From Rhodobacter sp. 24-YEA-8 (GTDB lineage Bacteria > Pseudomonadota > Alphaproteobacteria > Rhodobacterales > Rhodobacteraceae): a DNA stretch of 64,000 bases. Positions 24,739 to 44,041 of the stretch are shown in pieces. Each line of letters starts with the position of its first letter. Positions within the stretch are counted from its first letter, which is position 1. A program made the translations under genes and the position numbers. The stretch lies in contig NZ_FNSK01000003.1 in NCBI RefSeq assembly GCF_900105075.1, positions 216,982-280,981 on the forward strand, read 5' to 3'. Below the pieces are notes generated by a model. It searched no databases and was not told where the DNA came from. It was given only the letters and a program-made list of their open reading frames with translations.

Positions 24739-25770
24739 TCAGACCGTAGCGGCAGCAGGCACGGGGATCCTGTAATCCTGTTGTTTTGTCATCATGGCCC
24801 AGATGGCGCGCGCCATTTTGTTAGCCAGAGCGATCGCTACCAGCATGCGCGGCTTTCTTGCCAGCATTCGCTCCAGCCAGGAACCTTCCGGGATACGTGA
24901 TCGTCCCAGCCAGTTAAGCCGCGACATCGCACCGATGATTAGGAGACGCCTGATATCCGCCTGACCTGCTTTTGTGATCCGTCCCAATCGCTCCTTCCCT
25001 CCGGAAGAGTGCTGACGCGGAACAAGTCCCAGCCAGGCGGCGAAGTCGCGACCCCGCCTGAAGGTTTTCATGTCTGGTGCGAAAGCGTCAAATGCCAGTG
25101 CTGTGATTGGGCCGACCCCCGGCAAGGTCTGCAGGCGCCTCGCCGTTTCGGCGCCATCCGCCAGCTGGTGTGCCTTCCGAGTTCTCTCGTCGATACGAGC
25201 CGTTTGCTCTGCGATCTGTTCCAGCAGGTCCCTGCATTCCTCGCGCACGAGCCGAGGGATAGCTCCTTCATCTGAGTCGAGAATAGCCTGCACGCGACCG
25301 ATCTGCCTGAGGCCTGCCGGGAGGACGTAGCCGAACTCATAAAGAACAGCACGCAGCGCATTTACGAGCTCGGTTCTTTGGTGAACAAGGCGCTCTCTGG
25401 CTCGGAACAGCACAGCACGGGCCTGCTGTTGGTCAGTTTTCGGAGGCACAAAGCGCATCCCGGGCTGGCGGGCCGCAGTGACAATTGCCTCGGCATCGGT
25501 GGCGTCATTTTTCTGGCGCTTAACGAATGGGCGCACATACTGCGGAGGGACCATCAGAACCTGATGGTTGCGGCTGATCAACTCCCGCGCCCAAAAATGA
25601 GCGCTGCCGCAAGCTTCCATGGCGATGATCGCCCCAGGATATGCAGCCAAAAAACGCAGAAACTGCTGGCGGGGCACTTTCTTGCGGAAAGCTGGCCTTC
25701 CATCGGCTGTGGCACCGTGAAGCTGGAACACACTTTTGGCCAGATCGACGCCGACTATCATATCATTCAT
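24739..25770 (-). CDS. IS110-family transposase
   Basis: A 343-residue DEDD-type transposase related to Holliday-junction resolvases. The N-terminal catalytic domain begins MIVGVDLAKSVFQLH (first Asp) and continues with IAMEACGSAHFWARE and KNDATDAEAI. The C-terminal transposase_20 domain has LQTLPGVGPITALAF and WLGLVPRQHSSGGKERLG with the conserved Ser. It looks intact at both ends. The EACGSAHFWARE sequence is of the IS1111 subgroup type. Confidence 0.92.
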   Translation of the reverse strand: MNDMIVGVDLAKSVFQLHGATADGRPAFRKKVPRQQFLRFLAAYPGAIIAMEACGSAHFWARELISRNHQVLMVPPQYVRPFVKRQKNDATDAEAIVTAARQPGMRFVPPKTDQQQARAVLFRARERLVHQRTELVNALRAVLYEFGYVLPAGLRQIGRVQAILDSDEGAIPRLVREECRDLLEQIAEQTARIDERTRKAHQLADGAETARRLQTLPGVGPITALAFDAFAPDMKTFRRGRDFAAWLGLVPRQHSSGGKERLGRITKAGQADIRRLLIIGAMSRLNWLGRSRIPEGSWLERMLARKPRMLVAIALANKMARAIWAMMTKQQDYRIPVPAAATV

Positions 25771-25863
25771 CTTACCGTCCTTTCCGTTCCGTGGAGGTCT
25801 GTGCTTCTAACGCTCGCACATTGCGATGCCGGTTGGGGAGGGCGGCAACCATCCCATCTGTGT

Positions 25864-26454
25864 TCATCTACTTGGCAGGGTCTGCCACGGGACGCCTGTT
25901 TTGAGGATGGCGTTTGCGATTGTGACCAGCCTGCGGGCGATAGCGACGATGACCAGCTTGTGGGGTTTGCCGCGTATTTTGAGGGCCTGTGCGACTGGCT
26001 TCAAGACGGGGTTGTGACAGGCTGCAGCCAGTGCTGCCTGGAACAGGACATGTCTCAGTGCGCGCCGACCTCCGGCGATTGCCCGCTTGCCCCGCATTGC
26101 GCCACTGTCGTGCGGGATGGGAGCAAGGCCCGTCATCGCCGCAGCTTCACCGGATGTCATCCGCCCGAGTTCCGGCATTTCCGCGATCAGCATGGCCGCA
26201 GAGACGGGGCCAATCCCGGGGATGGACAGCAGAAGCCTTGCCGTTGCCGCCGACGTTTTCTCCTGCCCGATGACGCCTTTGATCCGCTGCTCAAGGTCAC
26301 CGACCTGAGCGTCCAGCATTGCCAGGAGGTTGGCATCCATACCCTCGAGATCGGCGGGGACTTGTTGTTTCCTGCGCGCCGCGATCTGTGCAGAAAGCCG
26401 TTTGCGCATCTCTACCACCTGCGCCCTGCGTGTTGTTAATGGTCTGCGGCGCAA
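25864..26454 (-). pseudogene. IS110-family transposase, C-terminal remnant
   Basis: Only the C-terminal half of a second, different IS110-type transposase remains: the linker (RRAQVVEMRKRLSAQIAARR), LLLSIPGIGPVSAAMLIAEM and LTGLAPIPHDSGAMRGKRAI, then the end TGVPWQTLPSR. The N-terminal DEDD catalytic half is missing; homology stops at about 26440, exactly where the EF-hand gene ends. It cannot be active alone. Confidence 0.85.
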
Positions 26455-26756: not shown

Positions 26757-26885
26757 GTCGTCCTCCTGGATATGCGGTCACTTCAGGTGATCCGGATCTG
26801 TCGGACCCGCAGGGACCAGGTGGATGCATGAACCAGCTGTTGCGCAGATTGTTCCCCATGTTGGCCAGAACGCCGCCCGTACCGC

Positions 26886-26911
26886 GGAACAATCCATAGA
26901 TGTTCCCGGTT
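26886..26911 (+). promoter_or_regulatory. EcfG-type promoter of the first BON gene
   Basis: GGAAC at 26886-26890, a 17-base spacer and GGTT at 26908-26911, about 60 bases upstream of the BON-domain start. This matches the alphaproteobacterial general-stress consensus GGAAC-N16/17-sGTT except C to G at the first -10 position. An inverted GTTCC inside the spacer could act as the -35 of a divergent promoter toward the EF-hand gene. Confidence 0.65.
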
Positions 26912-26972
26912 TGAACAAACTACAATGATCGGCGGATGCGCAGCCTGCCCTGTGACAAAAGGAGAAAATGAC

Positions 26973-27497
26973 ATGGAAAATAACTGGAAAGCGGTGCGAT
27001 ATCTCCGGCCCGGATTTTTCGGAGGGAGGCGATCAAACGATTTTCCGCCGACCTCCCTCGGCCACGAAGATCGTGCCGGCAATGGTGCTGCATCTATACC
27101 TGGCTTGCGGGAGTGGGATCCTGACCAACGCCACCTTGGGCGCAGAGAATGGGATCCGGGAAATTATGGGGGACTTGACCGCGAGCGCGGGCCGGAAGGC
27201 CATTCCGAAGACGTTCCGGTTTCTCGGCGCGGGCCGTTCCGGGGCATGGGGCCGAAGAATTACGTCCGCTCGGATGGCCGCATCTGCGAAGATGTCTGTG
27301 AAAGACTGACCGAAGCGGATGATATTGATGCCAGGGGTATCACGGTCAAAGCTCGATCCGGCGAGATCACGCTTGAGGGTTGCGTTGCCACGCTGAGTTC
27401 GAGATGCGCTGCAGAACATCAGGCCCTGTCCTGCAGGGGGGTAACTGATGTCCGAAACAGGCTGGAGGTCAGGTCGGGGCACAAGACCACACGCTGA
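26973..27497 (+). CDS. BON-domain stress protein (paralog 1)
   Basis: About 174 residues from the ATG at 26973, eight bases after GGAG. The N-terminal half is hydrophilic, Arg/Gly/Asp-rich and likely disordered; the C-terminal BON domain (about 105-170) includes RICEDVCERLTEADDIDARG, EITLEGCVATL and GVTDVRNRLEV. BON domains bind phospholipid or envelope surfaces and are typical of osmotic-stress proteins (OsmY). A close paralog sits at 38491-39252. A GGAAC-N17-GGTT promoter lies upstream, supporting control by the sigma factor encoded next door. Confidence 0.82.
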   Translation: MENNWKAVRYLRPGFFGGRRSNDFPPTSLGHEDRAGNGAASIPGLREWDPDQRHLGRREWDPGNYGGLDRERGPEGHSEDVPVSRRGPFRGMGPKNYVRSDGRICEDVCERLTEADDIDARGITVKARSGEITLEGCVATLSSRCAAEHQALSCRGVTDVRNRLEVRSGHKTTR

Positions 27498-27644
27498 AAT
27501 GGGCAGCTCCGCCGCTCGCACAAGAGATACGGGGCAGTATAGCAACGGTTCCACACTGTTTCGGGAAATGGGAAATTCCGGCTGTTGTCAGAGGGGGGAA
27601 CCCGGTAAACTTGCTTTCAGGGACTGGCATCATGGGTATTGACG

Positions 27645-27866
27645 ATGAGTAATTCCGTAATCCCTTTCCCCGGTCCTGATCTGGGACGGGCTTCTGACGA
27701 AGACGATCTGGTGGAGACTGCAGGTCAGGAGCTGCTCTCGGCAGTGATGGCCCAGCCTGTTCCTGACCGGCTGCATGCGCTTGCCGCCGAACTGGGAAAG
27801 GCGCTTGATCGGCGTATGGCTGACTTTTCAACGGGCCAGAGCGAAGGATCAACCGATCCGGACTGA
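27645..27866 (+). CDS. nepR: NepR-type anti-sigma factor
   Basis: A 73-residue acidic protein whose core, ELLSAVMAQPVPDRLHALAA, matches the NepR helix pair (typical form: residues ending in EPVPDRFLDLL). NepR binds EcfG and keeps it from RNA polymerase until phosphorylated PhyR captures it. Position supports this: it is directly upstream of the ecfG-like gene with 96 bases between. An ATG at 27645 is chosen over the TTG at 27639. GGAAC at 27598 has no matching -10. Confidence 0.78.
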   Translation: MSNSVIPFPGPDLGRASDEDDLVETAGQELLSAVMAQPVPDRLHALAAELGKALDRRMADFSTGQSEGSTDPD

Positions 27867-27904
27867 GCATGGCGGCGGATTACCGCCACTGTCACAGGCA
27901 CTGC

Positions 27905-27929
27905 GGAACTTAATACCCCCCGATCCGTT
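27905..27929 (+). promoter_or_regulatory. Perfect EcfG promoter in front of the sigma factor gene
   Basis: GGAAC at 27905-27909, exactly 16 bases, then CGTT at 27926-27929, an exact match to the general-stress sigma consensus. It lies between nepR and the sigma gene, 34 bases before its ATG, so the sigma factor probably amplifies its own expression independently of nepR. Confidence 0.82.
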
Positions 27930-27962
27930 TCCCTTACAATCAGAAGTGGAGGGAGACACATT

Positions 27963-28517
27963 ATGGCCACCTCGAAGCAAATCATACCGCAGGACCCAAA
28001 GCCTCAGGACGGATCAGCTTCGGGCAAAGTGGTCGAAATGATCCCGTTCCTGCGTATCTATGCCCGAAATCTGACACGCGGCGGAACTGAGGCGGATGAC
28101 CTCGTCCAGGAAACGCTCGTCAAGGCAATTGCGAATATAGACCGCTTCCAGCCGGGCACCAATCTGAGGGCCTGGCTTTTTACGATCATGCGCAACAGCT
28201 TCCTGACCGGGATCATGAAAAGATCGCGTGAGCCGGTTGGAAATCAGGATTGTGTTTCTGCTCAGGTGATCAGCTTTCCCGTCCATGACTCGCATATGGC
28301 ATGCAATCGGGTGATGCAGGCGATCAGGCGACTGCCGGCCCAGTACAGAGAAGCGCTGGTGCTCGTATTCCTGGTGGGAGAGAGCTATCAGGATGTAGCG
28401 CGGATCTGCGATTGTGCCATCGGAACAGTGAAAAGCCGGATCAGCCGTGGGCGGCAAATGCTGATGGATGATCTGCAGGTTACCACTGTGCGCGACCTGA
28501 TTGCCGTCAATTACTGA
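27963..28517 (+). CDS. ecfG: ECF sigma factor, EcfG-type (general stress response)
   Basis: A 184-residue ECF sigma factor. Region 2 covers about residues 24-90 (IPFLRIYARNLTRGGTEADD, LVQETLVKAI, NLRAWLFTIMRNSFL) and region 4 about 115-175 (LPAQYREALVLVFLVGESYQ, ICDCAIGTVKSRISRG). The neighbouring nepR and the autoregulatory GGAAC-N16-CGTT promoter place it in the EcfG group, which drives the general stress response of alphaproteobacteria. A GGAGG lies 9-10 bases upstream of the ATG. A full PhyR is not seen in the window; other candidates for the partner role are at 32340-32903 and the broken gene at 33108. Confidence 0.88.
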   Translation: MATSKQIIPQDPKPQDGSASGKVVEMIPFLRIYARNLTRGGTEADDLVQETLVKAIANIDRFQPGTNLRAWLFTIMRNSFLTGIMKRSREPVGNQDCVSAQVISFPVHDSHMACNRVMQAIRRLPAQYREALVLVFLVGESYQDVARICDCAIGTVKSRISRGRQMLMDDLQVTTVRDLIAVNY

Positions 28518-28692
28518 GACAATGCCCCCGCGCGCCCCGCGGGCTGTCCCGATTTGAACATCTGCGCGGCCCGGCTGCTTCTCTCAGAGTTTCGGCTCGG
28601 GATGCCGGTTTTGTGCTCCTCCTTATTGAGCTGATCTTCAGCCCTCTTTTTCTATTGGGCTGCTCGTCCGGCGCGCCGTTTTCAGAAACCAT
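28507..28692 (-). CDS. Possible small basic protein, maybe frameshifted
   Basis: An ATG at 28692 with GGAG six to seven bases upstream opens a 61-codon frame that runs into the end of the sigma gene. The first 18 codons (MVSENGAPDEQPNRK) look protein-like. After the five-A run the -1 frame gives a more natural low-complexity hydrophilic sequence (KKRAEDQLNKEEHKTG, ending GRAGALSQ with its own stop at about 28518). This suggests either a one-base deletion in the A run or no gene at all. Confidence 0.25.
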   Translation of the reverse strand: MVSENGAPDEQPNRKRGLKISSIRRSTKPASRAETLREAAGPRRCSNRDSPRGARGHCLSN

Positions 28693-28744
28693 ATCCCACT
28701 CCCCACCCCATCGCGCAGCCAAATCCGTTGCAGGCCAGCGAAGG

Positions 28745-31700
28745 TCAGATCGGAAGTGAGATCGTGCAGAAGACCCCATCCGATTCAACGCGGAAGGAAG
28801 TCGCTGCGTCCAGCTGGTAGGGCAATGCGCGCTCGATCAGCTCGCGCCCCTGCCCCCAGCCAGGTTCAGCCTCGGGCATGACGACACCTGTTTCACGCCA
28901 GGTAATATGGAGGCGGCGCCTGTCCTCGCCCTCAATCCGCCAACCAATATGCAGATGCCCGGTCGCACCGTTCAACGCGCCATGTTTCACCGCGTTGGTG
29001 GCCAGTTCATGCAAAGCCATGGCCAGGAGCTGCACGGTTAAAGGCCCAAGAGGAACATCTGAGGGACCATCAAGTATCAGGCGTTCCCCGGGATCGGTCC
29101 CGACGGCAGAAAGCGCGGTCCTGACGAGCGCGTCGAAGCTGAGCCTTGAGTTTTCGTCGAGACCCGAGAGCAGTCCCTGAACCCGCGCCAGCATTTCAAG
29201 CCGGTCGCGGAATCGTTGACCGAAATCCGTCATATCCCGTGCGGATTGCAGGGTGCGCTGTGCGACCTGACGCACCACCGACAAGAGATTGCGTGTCCGG
29301 TGCTGAAGCTCTCCCACCAGCACGCGCTGCCGTTCCTGCAGGCTTAACAATTCGTCCATATCTGTCGAGGCACACAGCCATTCGATGATCCGCCCTCCTG
29401 CGTTGCGCACCGGAGTGGCACGGGTCTGAAACCAGCGCCACTGGCCTGTCGATACATCCATCAATCGGAAATCGGCTTCGAACCCTGCGGTTTCCACGAC
29501 CGCCCATGCACTCTGTGCCGTTTCGCGATCATCGGGATGAACCTGTTCCAGCCAGCCCGCCCCCTGCGCCTTTTCTACCGACTGGCCGGTATAAGTGGCC
29601 CATTGCGGGCTGGCCCAGGTCCAGGATCCGCCAGGATCGGCACGCCATATCAACTGTGGCAGACCATCGATCAGAACATGCAGCCGCTTTTCGCTGTCTT
29701 GCAATGCCCGCTCGGCATGGTGCGTCGCGGTCATATCGGTGAAAGTCAGAACGGTGCCGCCGATGAAATTGTCGATGCTTCGATAGGGCAGCACCCGCAC
29801 GGCATAGTCGCGGTCCCGGGTTCTGTCGCTAACCATGCGGTCAATCGGGATCAGGCTTTGCAGCACCTGCCGCACATCCTCATGGATCTCGGGATAGCTG
29901 ATCCGTGCCACTATATGATCAAGCGGGCGACCGACATCGGTTTCGAGCAGGTGGAACACCTCGGTCGCCGAGGCGGTGAAATTGCGGAGCCTGAAATCAT
30001 TGTCGAGGAAGATGGTCGCAATCTGGCTGGCTTCCAGCAGGTTCTTGATGTCCGAATTGCTGCGCCCCAGTTCATGGATCTGATGGCCAAGCTCCAGATT
30101 GACGGTCTGAAGCTCTTCGTTCAGCGATTGCAGTTCCTCTTTTGAGGTTTCCAGCTCTTCGTTGGTGGATTGCAGCTCTTCATTGATCGACTGGTATTCC
30201 TCATTCGAGGATCGCAATTCCTCATTGGTGGATTCCAGCTCTTCAATGGTCGCCTGAAGACGCCCGCGCGTCAGCCGCAGCTCGTTTTCAATGCGCTGCA
30301 CATGATCGTCGGCGCCCGAAGGTGCTGGCCTTTCAGCTTCGTCGCTGGCGGGGCCGACATGCTGAAAGACAACCACGAGCGAAGTTATATGTTCACGGCT
30401 GAGCGGTTCGATGATGATATTCACACAAGAGGCCTGTTCCTCGTGTTTGATCACCTGGCGCAGCAGTTCGACTTTCTTCGCCTCGGCAAGGGCGCGATAG
30501 AGTGCGGCCCTAAGCTCGCCGCGCAGATCGGGATGAACGAGGCTGATCAGGCTTAGGGAGGCAGCCCCTGCCAGCGGTTCCAGAAACCGCCCGATCCTTC
30601 CAGAAAAATGCAGCACCTCGAATTGCGTGTCGATCACAACATAGCCGGGGGCAAAGCGTTCCGCGACGGCGTCCGCCTGGCGGCCGATGCTGTCCGACAG
30701 TCGTGGCAGTTGCACCGCCAGAGGATCCGGCGATGCTATGGTCACGGATGGGCCGGATTGAACGCGCAGGGATGGCGGGAAATCCGGGATGACCCGGGTG
30801 GCTGTATCCAGACGGCGGAACAGGCGGTTCTTGCGGTCAACGGGCGCGAAAAGTGTCTGATGGCGGGTGACGTTTTCTGACGAGCCCAGCATCAGAATCC
30901 AACGCCCCCGCAGCGCGAAATGGAACAGGGGAATGGTGCGATCCTGCACCTCTATATTCAGATATATCAGCAAATTCCGGCAAGAGAGCAGGTCAATCCG
31001 AGAGAAAGGTGCGTCCCGGACCAGATTATGGGGGGAGAAGATACAGATCTCGCGCAATTCTTTGACGACGTTGTAGGTATCGCCTTCGCGTGTGAACCAG
31101 CGCTCCAGACGATCCGGGCGGATATGATCCGCGATGGTCGGCGCATATCGCGCGGCACGCGCCAGCCCGAGGGCCCGCGCATCAAGGTCGGTGGCGAAAA
31201 TCTGGATGCGCGGCGGAACCTCCAGCGTGGCGGCATATTCTTTCAGCAGCATCGCGATGGAATAGGCCTCTTCGCCCGTGGCACAGCCCAGCACCCAGAC
31301 GCGGACCATATCCCCTTCGCGCTTGCCTTCAAAAAGCGACGGAATTTCGCGCTCCAGCAGGTCGAACTCCAGAGGATCCCGAAAGAACTGTGTGACGCCG
31401 ATCAGAAGATCCTGGAAAAGGCGCTGCACCTCTTCACGATTTTCACGCAACAGTTCTACATAGGCGGCAATGTCTGGCATTTGCAGCACCTTAAGACGCC
31501 GCTGCACCCGGCGCACGAAGGTGCCACGCTTATAGCCGTGGAAATCATTGCCCGTTACCTTCCGAAGCGCGCTGACGATCCCGGCGATTTTCGTTTCCAC
31601 CTCTTCGGCGGTGATGCGGATGCTCTCTTCGTGAAGCACCGCGATATTGCCAATGTAGAGATCAATTTCCGCAGCGATGCGGCTTGGCGTGCCCCGGATG

Positions 31701-32254
31701 TCAAGAACGCCGGATGGCCCGGCCCTCTCTGATCCGTCGGCATCGCCCGGATCCCATTCCCCTATCGTCAGGCCCCCGCACTCCTTCGCGGCGCGCAATC
31801 CAACCGCACCTTCCGCATGCAGCCCGTTCAGAATGACGGCAACGGAATGGCGCCCGGCATTACGCGCGATGGAGTCCAGCATCGTATCGACAGCGCCGGC
31901 TCTCTCGCCGGCAGGCTGGTCGCGCACAGAAATGCGGCCAGCGTCCAAGGTCAGCAGCCGATCGGCGCCGGCAATATAGACATGTTCCGGCAGGAGCGGC
32001 GCACCATCCTCGGCCATCATCACTGTAAATGATGAGACTGCCGTCGCTTCAGACAGTAAGTCTTCCTCCGACGGGCGATCTTTGCCGCCAATTGCGACCA
32101 GATATGCGCCGCCAAGACCCGGTTCTGTCGAGGACAGAATTTCGAGAAATGAGCCCAGCGATTTTGCAGAGACGCCAATGCCGATAACCGCCGCAACATC
32201 AGGAGGAAGATTTTCCGGATCTTTCACCGGATCTGTCTCATGGGTGTCATTCAT
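28745..32254 (-). CDS. Giant CheB/CheR-PAS-HWE histidine kinase
   Basis: About 1169 residues from the ATG at 32254 (AGGA six bases before). In order: a CheB methylesterase-like domain (about 18-195, VIGIGVSAKSLGSF, with the usual PDHH-type segment degenerate); a CheR methyltransferase (about 215-490, YKRGTFVRRVQRRLKV and SAM site VLGCATGEEAYSIAML); a long coiled coil of repeated STNEEL/SLNEEL units (about 650-720); two PAS domains (DFRLRNFTASATEVFH, then WTWASPQWATYTGQSVEKAQ); and an HWE kinase (H-box LQHRTRNLLSVVRQVAQ, N-box HELATNAVKHGAL, ITWRETG). Kinases of this design feed the PhyR-NepR-EcfG pathway in several alphaproteobacteria. It lies with two response regulators on the same strand. 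Confidence 0.88.
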   Translation of the reverse strand: MNDTHETDPVKDPENLPPDVAAVIGIGVSAKSLGSFLEILSSTEPGLGGAYLVAIGGKDRPSEEDLLSEATAVSSFTVMMAEDGAPLLPEHVYIAGADRLLTLDAGRISVRDQPAGERAGAVDTMLDSIARNAGRHSVAVILNGLHAEGAVGLRAAKECGGLTIGEWDPGDADGSERAGPSGVLDIRGTPSRIAAEIDLYIGNIAVLHEESIRITAEEVETKIAGIVSALRKVTGNDFHGYKRGTFVRRVQRRLKVLQMPDIAAYVELLRENREEVQRLFQDLLIGVTQFFRDPLEFDLLEREIPSLFEGKREGDMVRVWVLGCATGEEAYSIAMLLKEYAATLEVPPRIQIFATDLDARALGLARAARYAPTIADHIRPDRLERWFTREGDTYNVVKELREICIFSPHNLVRDAPFSRIDLLSCRNLLIYLNIEVQDRTIPLFHFALRGRWILMLGSSENVTRHQTLFAPVDRKNRLFRRLDTATRVIPDFPPSLRVQSGPSVTIASPDPLAVQLPRLSDSIGRQADAVAERFAPGYVVIDTQFEVLHFSGRIGRFLEPLAGAASLSLISLVHPDLRGELRAALYRALAEAKKVELLRQVIKHEEQASCVNIIIEPLSREHITSLVVVFQHVGPASDEAERPAPSGADDHVQRIENELRLTRGRLQATIEELESTNEELRSSNEEYQSINEELQSTNEELETSKEELQSLNEELQTVNLELGHQIHELGRSNSDIKNLLEASQIATIFLDNDFRLRNFTASATEVFHLLETDVGRPLDHIVARISYPEIHEDVRQVLQSLIPIDRMVSDRTRDRDYAVRVLPYRSIDNFIGGTVLTFTDMTATHHAERALQDSEKRLHVLIDGLPQLIWRADPGGSWTWASPQWATYTGQSVEKAQGAGWLEQVHPDDRETAQSAWAVVETAGFEADFRLMDVSTGQWRWFQTRATPVRNAGGRIIEWLCASTDMDELLSLQERQRVLVGELQHRTRNLLSVVRQVAQRTLQSARDMTDFGQRFRDRLEMLARVQGLLSGLDENSRLSFDALVRTALSAVGTDPGERLILDGPSDVPLGPLTVQLLAMALHELATNAVKHGALNGATGHLHIGWRIEGEDRRRLHITWRETGVVMPEAEPGWGQGRELIERALPYQLDAATSFRVESDGVFCTISLPI

Positions 32255-32339
32255 TGGGTATCCTGGGCGTCTCGGGCATGGCGTGTGAAACACATGTCTG
32301 AAGCGTCATGCAACGACAAAGGTTCCCGCTGAAAGTGGA

Positions 32340-32903
32340 TCAGTGCAGCAGATCGCGCCCACGCTCTGCCAGAGCACGTTCCATCAGGTGTTGCAGCCAT
32401 TTTTCCAGAGGTGGCAGCGTTTGCAGGCCCGACTGCTCCTCTATCGCAAGCAACAAGGTCGCTTCGACCAGCCGGTCGGCAGCTGCGGGGTCGGTCAGGA
32501 TCAGCCGGGCCGACAGCCTCAGCTTTGGCAGGAGCGCCATCAGCGTTTGCGTATGGATCTGGTTACGCAGCAGCTCTACGGTCGCGCGGGCTTCATAGGG
32601 CTTCGGCAACCGGGCAACACGGGCAAACCGACGCGGTATCTTCGTGACCTCATGCGCCGAGTAAAAAACGAAAGGGACAGCGGCCCCCATCAGTAGATCG
32701 GCCAGCAGATAGACCTCCTGGTCCCTCAGATTTACATCGAGCACCGCAAGGTCTGCATCCTCGACATAATCAGTTGCCTCAACAACCGAAGGAAAAGGCC
32801 CGAGCACTTTGGCCTTTGCCGCGCGGAAATGATCCGCCAGTTCGCAGGCAAGGTAGTAGTCATCCTCGACTATCATGATCGTGCGACCGGAAAGGGTTTG
32901 CAT
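32340..32903 (-). CDS. Response regulator: receiver followed by sigma-region-2-like domain (inverted PhyR-like)
   Basis: 187 residues. Residues 8-118 are a receiver domain: acidic pair in IVEDDYYLA, phospho-Asp56 in LAVLDVNLRD, Ser82 and Lys101 in the usual places. Residues 124-179 (LLPKLRLSARLILTDPAAAD, RLVEATLLLAIEEQ, LEKWLQHLMERA) align without a single gap to region 2 of the EcfG-like sigma of this window (IPFLRIYAR, DLVQETLVKAI, LRAWLFTIMRN), 18 of 56 residues identical by eye. PhyR has a sigma-like part before its receiver; here the order is reversed and region 4 is absent. It is 85 bases upstream of the giant kinase gene on the same strand, so the two may be co-transcribed. Anti-anti-sigma action on NepR is inference. 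Confidence 0.78.
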   Translation of the reverse strand: MQTLSGRTIMIVEDDYYLACELADHFRAAKAKVLGPFPSVVEATDYVEDADLAVLDVNLRDQEVYLLADLLMGAAVPFVFYSAHEVTKIPRRFARVARLPKPYEARATVELLRNQIHTQTLMALLPKLRLSARLILTDPAAADRLVEATLLLAIEEQSGLQTLPPLEKWLQHLMERALAERGRDLLH

Positions 32904-33107
32904 CTTTAATCCGTCTCGCGGCTGGTTCGGTTGTTCCGATGCAGCGGGCCCGGCGCGGATCGGACTATGCTTGTATCACTATGAAGCAAGTTGAGATTGA
33001 AGCAACCTCTGCGGTGAATCTCAATACATCATATTTATCAAAGGCTTGACTTACATTCATTCCGAATCTGCGGATATCCGCCTGCCGGAATCTCCTCTTC
33101 AGGCCAC

Positions 33108-33444
33108 TCAAAGGTTGATAGGCTTCTCCAGACGCGGGATTGCAGCATATGCCTGGGGCAACAAAGCCGTGTCGTAACCTGTGATAAAAATGAAGGGGAT
33201 CGCCGCCGCGACGAGGTGATCGGCCAGGGGAAAGACCATCTCCCCCCGGAGATTTACGTCAAGCATCGCAAAATCCGGGGTGACACCGGTCCGCAGACCT
33301 TCAAGGGCCTCGCGGACTGTCGGGAACGGGCCGATCACCCTGGCGCCCGCACGCTGCAGAAATTTTGTAAGATCGGCCGCCAGAAGATATTCATCTTCAG
33401 CAACCAGCACCGCTTTTCCGAGCAGGGTCGTCAGGAGTGAACTA
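33108..33444 (-). pseudogene. Single-domain response regulator, disrupted by IS5
   Basis: A receiver domain (VLVAEDEYLLAADLTKFL, phospho-Asp in FAMLDVNLRGE, Thr in FIFITGYD, Lys in RLEKPINL) with no output domain. The native start is missing: the frame runs into the IS5 end at 33444. Joining across the IS (one copy of the TA duplication removed) restores an uninterrupted reading frame from an ATG at 34314 (MRNADLSSLLTTLLGKAVLV) preceded by GGGAGG. The gene was therefore about 120 codons long before insertion. A GTG at about 33395 could still start a shortened receiver. It is related to the receiver of the regulator at 32340. Confidence 0.85.
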
Positions 33445-34295
33445 GGTCATGTTGACAAATGGCGGATCCATAGCCTGATGCAGGCAATGTCTATGACACC
33501 TAGGAAGCTGTCTGCGGTCTTGTCGTAGCGGGTTGCCAGCCTGCGACTGTTCTTAAGCTTGTTGAAGCACCGCTCGACCATGTTGCGTAGCGTGTAGATC
33601 GTCATGTCGACCGCCTTGCGCAGCTTGCGGTTCTTTCGCATCGGTATCATCGGAAGAGCATTGCGGCTCTCGATGTCTTCCCGAATTTTATCAGAGTCAT
33701 AGCCCCTGTCCGCGACAAGAACGGCGGGCTGTGGCAGATTGTCAGCCATCACCAGATCGTAGCCGGTGTAGTCTGAATCCTGTCCGGGCGTGATTTCGGT
33801 TCTCATGGGGAGGCCAGCGCCGTTGACGCGGAGGTGGATCTTGGTCGAGAACCCACCTCTTGAACGGCCAAAAGCCTCTTTCGGAGTCCCCCTTTTGCGC
33901 CCGCCGCATGATGATGGGCACGGATCACGGTGCTGTCGACCATCTGCAGTTTGTCTGGCGCAATCCCCGCGTGGTTCAGCGCGTCCAGGATATCCTCCCA
34001 CAGTCCGGCCAGAGTCCAGCGCCGGAACTGGCGATAGACCGAGGACCACTTGCCGAACTCTTCAGGCAGATCCCGCCACGGCGCGCCTGTTCGCGCTATC
34101 CAGAAAATTCCATTCAGAACAATACGATGATTGGATGGCTTGCGCCCATTCGGGTGTCGGACGGCACAAATGAACCCCTCGAAGAAGGCCCACTCATCAT
34201 CGGATATCAGGTTGCGTGCCAAGTTCATCTCCCACGTAGAGATGAGCTTGAATCACAGGGCATCGATCAGTGGAATCCCTTTTGTCAACACGTCC
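33445..34295 (-). mobile_element. IS5-family insertion sequence (IS427-like)
   Basis: 851 bases bounded by imperfect inverted repeats (GGTCATGTTGACAAATGG at the left, complement of CCTTTTGTCAACACGTCC at the right) and flanked by TA at 33443-33444 and 34296-34297, the target duplication typical of the IS427 group. It contains one transposase split over two frames. Removing it repairs the response regulator gene. Confidence 0.9.
33447..34228 (-). CDS. IS5-family transposase (two frames, programmed frameshift)
   Basis: The first frame starts at 34228 (MNLARNLISDDEWAFFEGFI) with the DUF4096-type N-terminal domain and the first catalytic Asp in LQMVDSTVIRAHHHAAGAKG. Translation then has to change frame at the AAAAGGGGG run near 33893 to continue as PKEAFGRSRGGFSTKIHLRV, with the second Asp in VLVADRGYDSDKIRE and the Glu region ending MVERCFNKLKNSRRLATRYD. 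Such a frame change is normal for IS427-group elements. The frames together give a complete transposase. Confidence 0.88.
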
Positions 34296-34529
34296 TAAGG
34301 TCTGCATTCCGCATTTGTGACTATCCTCCCGGGGACCAGGATCAACTACATCAGGCGCTGCTGCCATAGCCGAATGCAGCAATCGCGCGAGGCCTCCGAA
34401 TTTGCAACGGGCCGGTCCCTGAAGGGACTGGTCTTGGCAGGAACTCCCCACGGGTGTCCCCTCCGCCAGACAAAACGGGCGAAAGCCATGCATGTTCCTG
34501 ACCCCAAGGCGGTCCGGCGTATGCGCGCT

Positions 34530-34554
34530 GGAACAACGGCCCGCGATCCTTGTT
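34530..34554 (+). promoter_or_regulatory. Possible EcfG-type promoter of the SDR gene
   Basis: GGAAC at 34530-34534, 16 bases, TGTT at 34551-34554, 33 bases before the SDR start. The -35 is exact, the -10 deviates at the first base, so this is weaker than the other sites in the island. Confidence 0.4.
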
Positions 34555-34586
34555 CAGCAGAGCATCAGCATAGCGGAGGCCGTGAC

Positions 34587-35546
34587 ATGAGCCATTCATC
34601 TGACGAAAACGAGACCCCCACAATAATCGCCAATGCGCCCGGGCATGACAAAATCAACGTCGGAAACGATGTCAGGCAAGCGGGCAATGGGTTTGACTAC
34701 CCCAGACCGCCCTTCCCCGAACAAACCCAGGACCTGCCCGGGAGTTTTCGCAAGATGCAACCTCGACCTGATCATGGTGAGGAAAGCTGGGTCGGTGCGG
34801 GACGGCTTGCAGGGAAGGTTGCGGTCATCACCGGCGCAGACAGCGGCATCGGCCGGGCCGTTGCTATTGCCTACGCACGGGAAGGCGCTGATGTGGTCCT
34901 GGCCTATCTGAGCGAGACCGGGGATGCGGAAGACACCGCACAACTGATCCGCAACAGCGGGCAGCGTTGTGTGACAATCGCTGGCGACATCGCCGACGCT
35001 GCGCATTGTCGTGCGATTGTCGGAAAGGCGGTCGCGGAATTTGGTCGGATCGACATCCTTGTGAACAACGCGGCGCATCAGGACACTTTCGATGCGCTTT
35101 CTGAAATAACAGATGAGGAATGGGAGCGAACCTTCGCCGTCAACATCCATGCGATCTTCCGGCTGACAAAGGCCGCAGTGCCGCATATGGGACGCGGCAG
35201 TGCCATCATCAACACAGCCTCCATCAATGCCGACATGCCGAACCCGACGCTTCTCGCCTATGCGACCACCAAGGGTGCGATCCAGAATTTTACCGGCGGT
35301 CTGGCGCAGCTTCTTGCCGAACAGGGGATTAGGGTAAACTGCGTGGCGCCCGGCCCGGTATGGACTCCCCTGATACCGGCCAGCATGTCCGGTGACAAAG
35401 TGGCCAGATTTGGAGCGAATTACCCGATGAAGCGCCCCGCACAGCCGGTTGAACTGGCTTCGGCCTTTGTCATGCTGGCTGAGCCGATGTCGAGCTATAT
35501 CTCGGGCGCGACAGTGGCGGTGACCGGAGGAAAGCCGCTGATCTGA
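34587..35546 (+). CDS. SDR-family oxidoreductase, YghA/stress-type
   Basis: 319 residues from the ATG at 34587, seven bases after GCGGAGG. After a hydrophilic 60-residue extension (FPEQTQDLPGSFRKMQPRPDH-like, typical of the YghA/GSP39 group) comes a Rossmann short-chain dehydrogenase: cofactor loop ITGADSGIGRAVAIAYAREG, NNAAHQ, catalytic Ser in IINTASINAD, Tyr-Ala-Thr-Thr-Lys (YATTKGAIQNF), and GGKPLI at the end. Substrate unknown, probably NAD(P)-dependent reduction of a small aldehyde or ketone. Members are common in stress regulons; a weak GGAAC promoter lies upstream. Its last 52 bases overlap the convergent kinase gene. Confidence 0.85.
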   Translation: MSHSSDENETPTIIANAPGHDKINVGNDVRQAGNGFDYPRPPFPEQTQDLPGSFRKMQPRPDHGEESWVGAGRLAGKVAVITGADSGIGRAVAIAYAREGADVVLAYLSETGDAEDTAQLIRNSGQRCVTIAGDIADAAHCRAIVGKAVAEFGRIDILVNNAAHQDTFDALSEITDEEWERTFAVNIHAIFRLTKAAVPHMGRGSAIINTASINADMPNPTLLAYATTKGAIQNFTGGLAQLLAEQGIRVNCVAPGPVWTPLIPASMSGDKVARFGANYPMKRPAQPVELASAFVMLAEPMSSYISGATVAVTGGKPLI

Positions 35547-36589
35547 TCCGGCGGCGGCGCGAGGCCAGAGGATCGGAGCGTGAAAACGACCCCATCGGGC
35601 TCGAATTTCAGAACCGCTTCGCCTCTGAATTCATGCCGCAGAGCCTCCTCGATCAGCTCACGTCCAAAGCCGCTGGTTTCAGGCTCGGTCACCGGCGGAC
35701 CGCCCTCTTCCCGCCAGGTCAGTTCGAACTGGCCACGCCGCTGGGTCCATTCAATCTGAACCCGCCCATCGTCATTCGACCAGGCCCCGTATTTTTGCGC
35801 ATTTGTTGCGAGCTCACCGAGTGCAAGGCTCAGCGCAAAAACCTGATCAGCCTCGATCATGACCGGGCGGCCCCGCATGATCAGACGGTTTTCCGGCAGG
35901 CTGCCCGCAAGCGCATCGGCGATCAGCGTGCGGATATCGAGAGTACCATCGATATCCGCGAGAAGCGCGCGCTGTGCCTGATCAAGCTGGCAAAGGCGTC
36001 TGACCACTGCCTCCTGTGCCACTTCGGCCGAGTTGGCCTGGCGAAAAGTCAGCCGCACGATTGCGATGGCTTTCGCATAGGCATTCTTGATCCTGTGTTG
36101 CAACTCGCCGTTCAGGATACTGCTGCGACGGGCGGTTATCACCTCACCCGTGGTCTCTATCACAGTGTTCAGGAAACCGGCGATGCTGCCGTTCTCATCG
36201 ATTATCGGGCTGTAGCAGAAGGTGAACCAGCCATATTCGGGGCCATTGCCCCTCTCGATCTGCAGTTCAAAATTACGGATAAAGGTCGAGTCCCCCTGCA
36301 GGGCCTTCCTGGCTATCGGACCGATCTCATGCCAGGCTTCGGCCCAGATCTGACTGAAGGATTGCCCGAGACATGGTGTCTTCTGACCGAGGATCGGCAC
36401 GAAGGCGTCATTGTAGATCGTGATCATCTCTGGCCCCCAGCACAGACATTTGGGGAAATCTGACCGCAAAATCAGGTCAGAGGTGATGCGCAGAGCGACA
36501 GGCCAGCCTGAGCGGGGGCCAAGTGGTGTCTGGCCCCAGTCAAAATCACGAACCTGCCCGCTCATGGCCAGATTGATTCTGCGATCCAT
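35495..36589 (-). CDS. PAS-HWE histidine kinase
   Basis: About 364 residues. An N-terminal PAS-like sensor domain (FDWGQTPLGPRSGWPVALRI, ILRSDFPKCLCWGPEMITIY) is followed by an HWE kinase: H-box GELQHRIKNAYAKAIAIV, N-box LGELATNAQKYGAW, ELTWREEGGP. It is cytoplasmic, with no membrane segment. The start at 36589 is chosen because homologs begin just before the PAS domain; no strong ribosome site is seen. It is a good candidate for a second input into the local NepR/EcfG system. The final 20 codons overlap the SDR gene convergently. Confidence 0.82.
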   Translation of the reverse strand: MDRRINLAMSGQVRDFDWGQTPLGPRSGWPVALRITSDLILRSDFPKCLCWGPEMITIYNDAFVPILGQKTPCLGQSFSQIWAEAWHEIGPIARKALQGDSTFIRNFELQIERGNGPEYGWFTFCYSPIIDENGSIAGFLNTVIETTGEVITARRSSILNGELQHRIKNAYAKAIAIVRLTFRQANSAEVAQEAVVRRLCQLDQAQRALLADIDGTLDIRTLIADALAGSLPENRLIMRGRPVMIEADQVFALSLALGELATNAQKYGAWSNDDGRVQIEWTQRRGQFELTWREEGGPPVTEPETSGFGRELIEEALRHEFRGEAVLKFEPDGVVFTLRSSGLAPPPDQISGFPPVTATVAPEI

Positions 36590-36790
36590 AGAGGTGAACC
36601 CGCGCTTGAAGTCAGCCTTAAATGTCGTTTGTGTCGAAATAATTGTTCCCTTGCGCAGATGAATCAAGATTAAAAATCGGGTCACGGTGCGGCGCTGAAA
36701 AGGCTCGCGCTGACGATTGTTCAGCGCCGCACTGCACGGGGTGGGAACTGCGGCCCGGCACGTCGTAAGCCGGACCCCGGAACGCATCTG

Positions 36791-36967
36791 TTAATCCTCG
36801 GGGGTCGGTATCGGCTTTGGATTCCTGGGCCCGGGCTTTGCTTCGCCCATGTCGTCGGGCTCTGAGCGTGCGTCTTCCATATCGGCGGGATAAGTCTCGT
36901 CATCATCGATCGATGGTTTGGCTTCACGGCGTGACAACACGCCCTTGTTGCGGGTTTTGACAGGCAT
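36791..36967 (-). CDS. Small hydrophilic protein of 58 residues
   Basis: Sequence begins MPVKTRNKGVLSRREAKPSI and ends GPRNPKPIPTPED. It is highly charged and proline-rich at the C-terminus, with no hydrophobic core, so probably disordered. GAGAGGA lies about seven bases upstream of the ATG. It is in the middle of the stress island; an upstream GGAAC (plus-strand complement at 37088-37092) has only a partial -10. Function unknown. Confidence 0.5.
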   Translation of the reverse strand: MPVKTRNKGVLSRREAKPSIDDDETYPADMEDARSEPDDMGEAKPGPRNPKPIPTPED

Positions 36968-37203
36968 GGACGATCCTCTCTCCGATGATCTGTTGTATTC
37001 GTGCCCGTAGCCGCTCCACAGTTTCCGTTAATAGGCACGCCGGATGCACTGAACTCTGTGACCCCAAAGCCGTGTGGCGCCAGAGCGGTTCCCACGCCCG
37101 GTTGCAGCGAGGATCGGCTACGGCTTTTCGTGGGCCGGTCTCCGCACCCGGCGGAGGCCAGCGCTACTTTTCCTGCAGCCGTCAGGGAGCGGCGACGGCG
37201 GTC

Positions 37204-37701
37204 TCAGGCGGCGGCAAGCGCGGCCTTGTTGACATAACCATCGGCAAGCTCCGTCAGGGTGCTGTCGGTGGCCTCTTCTTCGGTCAGCGTGTTTTGCAGG
37301 ATCTTTGCAATCTCATCCTGTCCGAGCAGTTCGGCCCAGTTCCGCAATGTGCCGTAGCGGGCCATTTCATAATGCTCGACCGCCTGCGCCGCAGCGATCA
37401 ATCCCGCATCAAGCGCCGGCGAGCCTTTAAAGCTTTCGATCACCTCTTCGCCTTCATCAAGGATCCCTTCGATTGCCGGACAGGTCTTGCCACGGGCGGG
37501 CTTACCCAGAATTTCGAACACCTGCTGGAGCCGCTCGACATGGATCTGGGTTTCGTCATGGTGCTTTTCAAATGCGGTTCCTAGCTCTGCCGACTGCGCC
37601 GCCCGCGCCATTTTAGGCAAGGCTTTCAGCACCTTGCGCTCGGCGTAGTAGACGTCTTTAAGAAGATCGAGGAACAGATCATCTAGTGTCTTCGCTTTCA
37701 T
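37204..37701 (-). CDS. DUF892 ferritin-like protein (YciE/YciF family)
   Basis: 165 residues, all-helical, with the DUF892 pattern LDDLFLDLLKDVYYAERKVL, EKHHDETQIHVERLQQVFEI and AVEHYEMARYGTL, giving the Glu/His positions of a ferritin-like di-metal four-helix bundle. The ATG at 37701 has GGAG eight bases upstream. YciE/YciF-type proteins are induced by osmotic and general stress and are frequent EcfG targets. It follows a small gene whose stop overlaps its ribosome site. Confidence 0.88.
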   Translation of the reverse strand: MKAKTLDDLFLDLLKDVYYAERKVLKALPKMARAAQSAELGTAFEKHHDETQIHVERLQQVFEILGKPARGKTCPAIEGILDEGEEVIESFKGSPALDAGLIAAAQAVEHYEMARYGTLRNWAELLGQDEIAKILQNTLTEEEATDSTLTELADGYVNKAALAAA

Positions 37702-37706
37702 CGGTC

Positions 37707-37910
37707 TCACTCCTGTTCAGTTTGATCGGGATCAACCTCAGGAACAGATGGCGAGACAGATTGTTCCGGCGCTTCCCCATCATCCGCAACTGGTGGCGGA
37801 GGATTGCCGTTCAGATGGATCACCGTACTTTCGCCGCTGCGCAGATTTATCCTCATGGCGCCGCCGTGAGGTTCGCGCGGCAGTATCCCGCAAGGCGAGT
37901 TACGGCCCAT
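37707..37910 (-). CDS. Hypothetical small protein upstream of DUF892 gene
   Basis: About 67 residues from an ATG at 37910 with AAGGA four bases before. The middle (RINLRSGESTVIHLNGNPPP) looks like a short beta hairpin, followed by a Pro/Glu/Ser-rich acidic tail ending DPDQTEQE. The stop lies within the ribosome-binding region of the DUF892 gene, suggesting coupled translation. No family recognised; the exact start is uncertain. Confidence 0.4.
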   Translation of the reverse strand: MGRNSPCGILPREPHGGAMRINLRSGESTVIHLNGNPPPPVADDGEAPEQSVSPSVPEVDPDQTEQE

Positions 37911-37984
37911 GCTGTCCTTTATGGGAACATTGCGGCCTCTGTTCCGATTGTAACGCCAGAGATCTGAACAGGAAGGAGAAGGCC

Positions 37985-38299
37985 ATGTCCGCGCCACATA
38001 CCAATCTCGAGAAGCAAAGAAAGCGTCACTGGGCTCCGCTGCTGGGGATCGCTGCCGCCACTCTGTTTGGTGTCCTGCTTATCGTATACTGGATCGCCGA
38101 AGAGGTTGTCGAAGCCGATCCGGAAACCCCTGCCGGAATCGAGTCCGGAACGGTAAACGAGCCAGCGCAGTCGGCTATACCTGCCGAGGCCATCGAGCCA
38201 GGCGCTCAGCCGGGGGAGACCGGAAGCACGGTGAACCCGCCGACCACCCGCGAAAGCCCGCCCCTGCCCAATGCACCCGAAGAGCTGACAACCGAATAG
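37985..38299 (+). CDS. Small membrane-anchored hypothetical protein
   Basis: 104 residues starting six bases after AAGGAG. A basic N-terminus (EKQRKRHW) is followed by one membrane helix (LLGIAAATLFGVLLIVYWIA, about residues 18-38) and an acidic Pro/Glu-rich tail of 65 residues, expected in the periplasm. GGAAC-N17-GATT at 37924-37949 is a degenerate candidate stress promoter. Function unknown. Confidence 0.6.
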   Translation: MSAPHTNLEKQRKRHWAPLLGIAAATLFGVLLIVYWIAEEVVEADPETPAGIESGTVNEPAQSAIPAEAIEPGAQPGETGSTVNPPTTRESPPLPNAPEELTTE

Positions 38300-38490
38300 T
38301 CATCGCCCGGGCCTGTGGGAAGGTGCTGCATCATGTCGGCCAGAGATTTTCGGCGGAATCTTCGATCCCTAAGGGCACCCGGCTGAAGCTGACACACCCG
38401 TGTATCGAAGTCTGCGGCCTGCTTCTCAGCGGGCCGCAGTGCAAAGCAGTGAAGAGCAGATGGGCGTCAGGCGCCTTTTATGCGTGTCGT

Positions 38491-39252
38491 TCAGCTATCA
38501 ACCCCACTGGCGCTCGTCGCGCCTGTTTCATCACCGGTGTCACGAATACGAAGGTTGTTCTGGACATGCCTTATCCCTGAACATTGCTCGACGGTGTCTT
38601 CTGCGGCGCGTTTCGCATATCGCGAGGATACCTGCCCGCTGAGGGTGACTTCTCCATTCGCAACATCAACGGAAATGCCACGCGCATCCACGGCATCCGC
38701 GTCGGCCAGCCGATCGCAGACATCATCCCGGATCCGCTCATCGCTGCGCTTGTAATCCTTGGGGCCATGACCGCGAAATCCCCTCTCTGCCGGCTCATCC
38801 CGGCCCTGCCCCTGGAACGCAGAATAGATTCCGGGATCATAGCTTCGGGGAGGAAAGCCGGCGACATAGGGGGGATAACCGGCGCTTTCCCGGAAGCTGC
38901 CCGCAGCCTCCCGATCACGGCGTGCCTCATCACGCCAGTTCCGGCCATCCTCATCGTATCTGCGTTCGTGACGGGCGAAGCCGAAGGCGTGGCCGTAATC
39001 CTGCTGACCGTAATCCTGGCTCCCGTAGTCATCATGCGCCCTGCCGGGCGCCCGAACATAATCACGCCGGTCCTGATCCCATTGCGAACCGGCGCGAAAA
39101 CGGGTCTCGGCCGCATCTTCACGTACATGTGGCTGATCATATGCGCGGGGCCGCCAGGGCGTCGTGTGCTCATCGCGGCCGCCACCGTCTCTCTCATAGC
39201 GGGCCCGGTTGCGCTGATCGTCCTGGCTCTCATCATAGCGCCGATTTGCCAT
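38491..39252 (-). CDS. BON-domain stress protein (paralog 2)
   Basis: 253 residues. The first 165 are extremely hydrophilic (Arg, Asp, Tyr, Gly; DYGSQDYGQQDYGHAFGFAR), likely disordered. A BON domain follows: RIRDDVCDRLADADAVDARG, EVTLSGQVSSRYA, GIRHVQNNLRIR. It is clearly related to the BON protein at 26973-27497, sharing the GPKxYxRSDxRIxxDVC block. AGGAGG lies seven bases before the start. The promoter is a GGAAC-N16-GGTT site at 39335-39359. Confidence 0.85.
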   Translation of the reverse strand: MANRRYDESQDDQRNRARYERDGGGRDEHTTPWRPRAYDQPHVREDAAETRFRAGSQWDQDRRDYVRAPGRAHDDYGSQDYGQQDYGHAFGFARHERRYDEDGRNWRDEARRDREAAGSFRESAGYPPYVAGFPPRSYDPGIYSAFQGQGRDEPAERGFRGHGPKDYKRSDERIRDDVCDRLADADAVDARGISVDVANGEVTLSGQVSSRYAKRAAEDTVEQCSGIRHVQNNLRIRDTGDETGATSASGVDS

Positions 39253-39334
39253 TCGTCATTCCTCCTGTGTTGTGCGGCACTGGGCCGGTTTCTGAGGCCT
39301 TTGCGCAGATGGCGATCTCTGCGCGCATCCGATG

Positions 39335-39359
39335 AACCTCAGGGCTTGCGATTTGTTCC
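39335..39359 (-). promoter_or_regulatory. EcfG-type promoter of the second BON gene
   Basis: Read on the minus strand: GGAAC (39359-39355), 16 bases, GGTT (39338-39335). It lies 83 bases before the BON start and just after the sodC stop, giving the BON gene its own stress promoter. Confidence 0.65.
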
Positions 39360-39374
39360 TGTCCGGAGCGCGGC

Positions 39375-39905
39375 CTATTCGATAACCGCACAGGCCAGGC
39401 GGTCGCCTGCATTTCCACTGGGTTGACTGCGGTGATCATCGGCGCCGGCATGCACCATGAGCGCCCGCCCCCTGATCGAGTTTTCACCAGCGCCAAGAGA
39501 CACATACGGGTTGAAAACCTGCACCCGGGCGACGCCGTCTGCATCGGTATGGATATTCGGCATATCCCCCGCATGAGGGCCTGTTTCCGACAACACACCA
39601 TGCGCCAGATTGGTGGGATTGAAATGGCCGCCGGCGGATTCATGGGCGCTGTGGGGATCGCATGTGCCGGTCTCATGCACATGAAACCCCAGCCAGGCAT
39701 TGGCGGGAAGGCCGCCAAGGTCGAGGTCGATCAGAACGCCGCCCCTGGTGCCGGTGAGGGTCGCAGTGCCGGTCTCTGTGCCCTCGGTGTTGATAAATGC
39801 CGCACGGCTTTCTTCGGCCTTCGTTTGCGGGGCTTCTGTCTGAGCGAATACTGCCAGCGGCAGAGCAAAAGCCGTGCAAAGCAGAGTGAGGGCAATGGGT
39901 TTCAT
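39375..39905 (-). CDS. sodC: Periplasmic Cu/Zn superoxide dismutase SodC
   Basis: 176 residues with a signal peptide (LTLLCTAFALPLAVFAQ). The metal-binding pattern is complete: GFHVHETGTC (Cu ligands and the disulfide Cys), AGGHFNPT (bridging His), AGDMPNIH, MVHAGADDH, and the second Cys near the end (GDRLACAVIE). It dismutates superoxide in the periplasm. The ATG at 39905 follows GGAGG by eight bases. A clean GGAAC-N16-GGTT promoter ends 28 bases upstream, so it is likely a member of the local stress regulon. Confidence 0.94.
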   Translation of the reverse strand: MKPIALTLLCTAFALPLAVFAQTEAPQTKAEESRAAFINTEGTETGTATLTGTRGGVLIDLDLGGLPANAWLGFHVHETGTCDPHSAHESAGGHFNPTNLAHGVLSETGPHAGDMPNIHTDADGVARVQVFNPYVSLGAGENSIRGRALMVHAGADDHRSQPSGNAGDRLACAVIE

Positions 39906-39933
39906 AGGACGTTCCTCCATGTGACAGAGAAGC

Positions 39934-39958
39934 AACCTGCCGCCAGTGAGGTTGTTCC
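39934..39958 (-). promoter_or_regulatory. EcfG-type promoter of sodC
   Basis: Minus strand GGAAC (39958-39954), 16-base spacer, GGTT (39937-39934), at a normal distance from the sodC start. The -35 element directly abuts the end of the cytochrome gene. Confidence 0.7.
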
Positions 39959-39966
39959 CTCACCGG

Positions 39967-41352: not shown

Positions 41353-41363
41353 CTCATCCCCCC

Positions 41364-43133: not shown

Positions 43134-43136
43134 AAC

Positions 43137-43886: not shown

Positions 43887-43946
43887 GTCGTTTCCCTGGC
43901 TGTGAACTGGGCTGGAAGCGGCATCCGGGATGCTCTGGGAACCCTG

Positions 43947-43971
43947 AACCGGGGATAGTGCAGATTGTTCC
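43947..43971 (-). promoter_or_regulatory. EcfG-type promoter of the GMC dehydrogenase operon
   Basis: Minus strand GGAAC (43971-43967), 16 bases, GGTT (43950-43947), about 60 bases before the subunit 3 start. It is nine bases from the equivalent element pointing to exoD. Confidence 0.68.
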
Positions 43972-43980
43972 GGGAATTCC

Positions 43981-44005
43981 GGAACAGTCTTGTCGTGAAC
44001 GGGTT
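43981..44005 (+). promoter_or_regulatory. EcfG-type promoter of exoD
   Basis: GGAAC 43981-43985, 16 bases, GGTT 44002-44005, 36 bases before the exoD start. Together with the site at 43947-43971 it makes a symmetric divergent pair of stress promoters. Confidence 0.68.
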
Positions 44006-44041
44006 TCCCCTCACTTGAACAGGAAGGGGACCGGCCAGGCT

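Follow-up and report, generated by a model that had tools for sequence, protein, structure and literature searches.

What is a response regulator doing with a piece of a sigma factor at its C-terminus? The question is raised by P0001, a protein of 187 amino acids encoded in a 64,000-nucleotide stretch of the genome of Rhodobacter sp. 24-YEA-8 (contig NZ_FNSK01000003.1, positions 216,982 to 280,981; the window in what follows). P0001 and its relatives, here called REC-sigma2, consist of a receiver followed by region 2 alone of an EcfG-like sigma factor, whereas PhyR consists of an N-terminal sigma-like domain (regions 2 and 4) followed by the receiver. The review passages available to us name no sigma-mimicking antagonist of the anti-sigma factor NepR other than PhyR. 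We consider it reasonably probable that P0001, too, is a phosphorylation-controlled NepR antagonist, a decoy of EcfG region 2 that makes do with region 2 alone.

The phosphorylation pocket of the receiver is intact, with E13, D14, D56, S82 and K101 all in place, and aspartate occupies position 56 in 68 of the 70 members of a family alignment. In a sequence comparison with the PDB, 2lpm and SdrG (5ieb) were the solved structures with the closest receivers. Behind the receiver, residues 124-179 align without gaps to region 2 of the EcfG encoded in the window, with 18 of 56 positions identical. This count had been made by eye in an initial annotation of the stretch and proved exact; it was reached by none of 20,000 composition shuffles in register and by none of 300 when any offset was allowed (best shuffle, 14). 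The Pfam profile PF22029 (PhyR_sigma2), named for a domain that is N-terminal in PhyR and C-terminal in REC-sigma2, matches residues 122-170 with E=9.7e-4 and 19.6 bits in the whole protein and with E=6.8e-5 and 23.3 bits in the isolated C-terminus, both scores lying below the gathering cut-off of 27 bits. Fold searches with the whole protein were filled by receivers and uninformative on the C-terminus, which was then modelled alone. The predicted structure matches solved sigma-2 domains across the whole domain and is close to the Bartonella EcfG-NepR complex. Only region 2, and no region 4, was detected by Pfam profiles in the 187 amino acids. Judged from profiles and model, the last ~70 residues of P0001 are a sigma region-2 domain; the layout first proposed for the protein, with the receiver in front, a region-2 mimic behind it and no region 4, agrees with the profiles, the C-terminal model and the conservation across the family.

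The residues of this domain bear on what it could bind. P0, L2, R3, A6 and D17 are common to EcfG, PhyR and REC-sigma2. At the equivalents of the region-2.2 positions D403, Q406 and E407 of sigma-70, which we take to be contacts to the core polymerase, the first residue in EcfG proteins is always D (100%), the second is Q in 97% and the third E or D in 96%; in REC-sigma2 proteins the first is R and the second E, each in 97%, and the third varies among A, R, L and K. Further along, EcfG has an invariant R-N pair that REC-sigma2 does not keep. The comparison was made by alignment blocks, with the EcfG of locus L024 lost in block cutting and the partial PhyR of L081 left out. PhyR is likewise degenerate in its polymerase and promoter contacts, according to the passages seen of PMC8103513. 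As far as can be read from the alignment, the residue pattern of REC-sigma2 is that expected of a decoy and not of a sigma factor. Binding to the core polymerase, which the initial annotation had offered as a side alternative, is less likely, given the replacement of the residues expected to make that contact.

The family to which P0001 belongs is widespread, and no description of it came to light. Searching with the protein gave 182 proteins at E<=1e-3, P0001 included, with a query coverage of at least 91% for each of the 120 matches listed; a profile search gave at least 694 matches at E<=1e-10 (7998 best candidates scored, 120 listed). Existing database names among the matches listed are only "response regulator", "CheY-like" or "hypothetical", and many of these relatives carry a precomputed PF22029 label. 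Within the 70-member alignment PF22029 is found at E<=0.01 in 64, Response_reg in 36 and the generic Sigma70_r2 in one. The extra C-terminal domain of ~70 residues is conserved across the family, and its motif, P-x-LR-x-x-AR...AADRLVE...WL, is near-invariant at many positions. The family spans Rhodobacterales, Rhizobiales and Tistrella. Named hosts are Tabrizicola, Pseudotabrizicola, Gemmobacter, Paracoccus, Mesorhizobium, Aquibium, Shinella and Martelella, and the gene is plasmid-borne in Ketogulonicigenium, Ensifer and Tistrella. Among 289 genomes sampled evenly across the class, with the 30 best loci opened, a receiver upstream of the domain was confirmed only in four (G000, G050, G258 and G067), so the distribution is patchy. 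The 101 genomes of this sample that matched a profile of the C-terminal domain were rejected as a count of the family, since the number is mostly due to the profile also picking up ordinary EcfG proteins. A literature search, mainly of freely accessible papers, returned no receiver-first region-2 protein, and none appears in the parts seen of PMC12148442, PMC4598750, PMC8103513, PMC7083833 and PMC4814048.

Copies of the gene and their neighbours are not always whole. The window's genome holds a second REC-sigma2 gene, on contig C5, whose product is 78% identical to P0001. Kinases beside paralogous copies are damaged: one CheB-CheR-HWE kinase lacks most of its middle (L028, 6639-8228, 529 aa) and another is split into two frames (L027, 8465-10497). 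On plasmid pRACO34Aa of Rhizobium sp. ACO-34A (L139, 7001-7590) the receiver (129 aa) and the sigma-2 domain (66 aa) are separate open reading frames (ORFs) that overlap by a stop/start TGATG, either a natural split or a recent frameshift. Two sigma-2-like ends on long odd frames in G050 (contigs C17 and C3; L022, 6462-8105, and L023, 4953-6464) were set aside as members, as they look like degraded copies.

Gene neighbourhoods were compared over 35 loci, comprising the window, 26 loci from the scan of genome contigs and eight others, among them the second copy of the window's genome; the duplicate L026 and the doubtful L022 and L023 were left out, and in some loci one flank is shorter than 10 kb. 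A NepR-like ORF is present within 10 kb in 25 of the 35, an HWE kinase in 24, EcfG in 16 and a receiver-only gene in 14, and in 14 loci the NepR-like ORF lies no more than 1 kb from REC-sigma2. EcfG was identified by a region-4 search, an earlier EcfG profile having absorbed REC-sigma2 proteins as well, and for one of the 16 (L031) the evidence is a region-4 fragment of 53 aa. Seeds for the NepR profile came from the REC-sigma2 loci themselves; the profile had no match among reversed ORFs and found NepR ORFs in 15 of 29 PhyR loci (L056-L084, E 8e-6 to 2e-3). At annotated plasmid loci the adjoining small ORF matches it in six of seven (E 2e-15 to 1e-3), and none of the small ORFs tried at the Rhizobium sp. 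ACO-34A locus did so; in several of the seven the module adjoins catalase, ferritin-like, SDR or general-stress genes. The gene order in G050 is EcfG, REC-sigma2, NepR-like and HWE kinase, which resembles a phyR-nepR-ecfG locus in which REC-sigma2 stands in place of PhyR. Tistrella has REC-sigma2, NepR-like and HWE kinase in this order, and its EcfG gene is on a different contig. For some divergent members, Tistrella's among them, the NepR-like partner resembles the NepR profile only in the region towards the C-terminal end of the profile, a likeness that might suit a partner offering region 2 alone. Co-variation of the mimic with the local EcfG was not found in nine pairs.

Promoter motifs tie these loci to EcfG as well. 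The consensus of EcfG-type promoters is GGAAC-N16/17-SGTT (PMC12148442, legend of Figure 4). Over 736 kb from 41 loci, GGAAC-N-SGTT has 158 occurrences with a spacing of 16 and 43 with a spacing of 17, against 5-20 at each of 20 other spacings; neither of the two Tistrella loci holds the motif. A site stands just upstream of the REC-sigma2 gene in nine of the 41 loci, with 2.2 expected, though the nine are not independent (four Mesorhizobium, three Shinella). The window contains nine exact motifs, eight of them within 26800-44010; the 42 kb of the window outside the locus counted above holds one. Beside the motifs of this segment lie genes for BON-domain proteins, a DUF892 protein, an SDR dehydrogenase and a Cu/Zn superoxide dismutase, which suggests that the segment is probably an EcfG regulon, a stress island.

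PhyR itself was sought in the same hosts. A canonical PhyR is encoded in 29 of the 32 genomes with REC-sigma2, the window's genome included. The other three, G050, G258 and G067, two of which are Tistrella, gave no match at E<=1e-30 and none over the cut-off at E<=1e-4. The initial annotation held that the context fits a role in the NepR-EcfG pathway, and the recurring neighbourhoods, the EcfG-type promoters and these three genomes lend it support.

The same annotation had called P0001 an inside-out PhyR. As a description of layout this stands; as a statement of ancestry it is probably wrong. REC-sigma2 resembles PhyR in its receiver and degenerate sigma domain, its lost polymerase contacts and its linkage to nepR, ecfG and HWE kinases, yet P0001 scores only 29.2 bits against the PhyR model NF006623, whose cut-off is 240 bits. 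With EcfG-type sigma factors (presumably the group ECF15) it has in common the region-2 fold and the motif P-x-LR-x-x-AR...AD-x-LV-x-x-TL, but it has no region 4, the expected polymerase contacts are replaced and a receiver is attached. The single-domain stress receivers SdrG and MrrA, which we take to be of the "FATGUY" type, lack a sigma-2 domain, although SdrG is, with 2lpm, among the closest receiver sequences in the PDB. A quick, unrooted receiver tree (122 columns, several long branches; 26 of 28 PhyR receivers entered) places the 26 PhyR receivers on one side of a branch with SH-aLRT 99, and 35 REC-sigma2 receivers together with 15 receiver-only proteins on the other; the group nearest to REC-sigma2 is that of receiver-only genes beside HWE kinases. 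In a region-2 tree of 54 columns, which carries a long-branch warning, REC-sigma2 (23), EcfG (38) and PhyR (27) each keep to their own side of a branch, with support of 89, 72 and 96, and the sister pair among the three is left unsettled. The sigma-2 domain of P0001 scores closer to EcfG than to PhyR. Because the REC-sigma2 receiver groups with single-domain regulators and not with PhyR receivers, the design probably arose independently of PhyR, with the caveat that the trees are short, unrooted and long-branched.

In the window the regulator gene is followed, 46 nt downstream, by an HWE kinase gene; EcfG, placed about 4 kb away at first, lies at 3.8 kb, and the NepR-like gene at 4.5 kb. The NepR-like protein matches the NepR model from related loci with E=1e-25, the model having been seeded with the same protein, and Pfam NepR only with E=0.09. 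All ten NepR-like proteins tested fall below the Pfam NepR cut-off, and nine, all but the window copy, have no NepR match there, so automatic annotation can miss such proteins. Further features are collected in the table.

Features of the REC-sigma2 locus and its surroundings (positions in the window)
Feature	Position	Strand	Basis or remark
REC-sigma2 response regulator, 187 aa (P0001)	32340..32903	-	ORF present in window
Receiver domain, residues 1-112	32568..32903	-	profile matches and phosphorylation-pocket residues
Phospho-acceptor D56 codon	32736-32738	-	
Sigma region-2-like domain, residues 124-179	32367..32534	-	Pfam, structure model, ungapped alignment to EcfG
Stretch modelled, residues 113-187	32343-32567	-	
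CheB-CheR-PAS-HWE histidine kinase, proposed kinase	28745..32293	-	Pfam; downstream of regulator
Second HWE histidine kinase, 430 aa	35495..36787	-	
NepR-like anti-sigma factor, 75 aa	27639..27866	+	ATG start possible at 27645
EcfG-type sigma factor, 184 aa	27963..28517	+	Pfam Sigma70_r2, Sigma70_r4_2, PhyR_sigma2
Single-domain receiver protein	33108..33410	-	native start apparently removed by insertion sequence
IS5-like insertion sequence	33443..34297	-	20-nt inverted repeats (85% complementary), two overlapping transposase frames
EcfG-type promoter GGAAC-N16-CGTT, just upstream of ecfG	27905..27929	+	exact match
Divergent promoter-motif pair	26831-26855, 26886-26911	-, +	exact matches; beside EF-hand and BON-domain genes
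EcfG-type promoter motif	34474..34498	-	exact match
EcfG-type promoter motif upstream of BON-domain gene	39335..39359	-	exact match
EcfG-type promoter motif at start of Cu/Zn superoxide dismutase gene	39934..39958	-	exact match
Divergent promoter-motif pair	43947-43971, 43981-44005	-, +	exact matches

The insertion sequence, which we assume to be IS5-like, ends ~5 codons inside the receiver-only gene as judged from the relatives of that gene, which is why the native start is considered missing. No exact EcfG-type site is present just upstream of the window's REC-sigma2 gene; with the insertion nearby, expression of this copy may be changed even if the proposed function holds for the family. 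At 24739-26454, beside the stress island, lie a transposase gene, presumably of IS110 type, and a fragment of another.

Taken as a NepR antagonist, P0001 would work as follows. The neighbouring HWE kinase would phosphorylate D56 of the receiver, whereupon the C-terminal sigma-2 domain would become exposed or ordered and compete with region 2 of EcfG for binding to the local NepR-like anti-sigma factor. The freed EcfG would then transcribe from GGAAC-N16/17-SGTT promoters in the stress island and elsewhere, and REC-sigma2 would not itself act as a sigma factor. What weighs against this proposal is that 10 of the 35 loci hold neither a NepR-like ORF nor EcfG within the 10 kb examined.

A rather improbable alternative, though the best placed of three, makes the protein a negative or buffering regulator that sets a threshold: its sigma-2 domain would bind NepR but leave EcfG unreleased, or would take up surplus NepR. 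The presence of PhyR in most of the genomes examined would suit such a role, as would the retention of P0, L2, R3, A6 and D17 without the expected polymerase contacts, and full displacement of EcfG may fail where region 4 is absent. In the three genomes without detected PhyR, however, it would leave no other known activator. The excess of promoter motifs upstream of the gene fits autoregulation like that described for phyR (PMC8103513, in the passages seen), but fits negative feedback too. Another reading, which we think unlikely, has the protein serve as a phosphate sink for the kinase in the manner of SdrG and MrrA, with a C-terminal domain that is either a relic or a module for dimerisation or docking. 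The grouping of the receiver with single-domain receivers and the second receiver gene nearby in 14 of the 35 loci speak for this, but the near-invariant motif positions are not expected of a relic, and Rhizobium sp. ACO-34A keeps the domain as an ORF of its own, though maybe by recent frameshift. That the domain binds core polymerase or promoter DNA and acts directly on transcription is very improbable: its fold is that of region 2 and split sigma-2/sigma-4 proteins exist (SigO-RsoA, described in passages of PMC8103513), but R and E at two of the three contact positions in ~97% of blocks, a variable third position and the unconserved R-N pair argue against it.

If P0001 and its relatives are NepR antagonists, they usually serve an accessory, sometimes plasmid-borne, NepR-EcfG pair, as most genomes examined keep a canonical PhyR; in the three genomes without detected PhyR, REC-sigma2 may be the only such antagonist. 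A broader scenario, which we put forward tentatively and hold at somewhat less than even chances, is that sigma mimicry evolved twice: a single-domain receiver would have captured an EcfG-type region 2 and become a minimal NepR antagonist without region 4, paired with its own NepR-like proteins, moving about as an autonomous stress module, in many cases by plasmid, and replacing PhyR altogether in Tistrella-like lineages. A genome with the Tistrella genus code (G177), in which EcfG-like genes are present and neither PhyR nor REC-sigma2 was detected, counts against simple replacement. The small size of REC-sigma2 and the frequent adjacency of its proposed partners make the proposal directly testable. 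If it is true, region 2 alone can suffice to hijack an anti-sigma factor, and the protein could serve as a small, switchable component in the control of orthogonal sigma factors. Accessory NepR-EcfG pairs without an adjacent PhyR, the pair in the window included, would then be explained too, and REC-sigma2 could supply stress control to genomes that have no PhyR.
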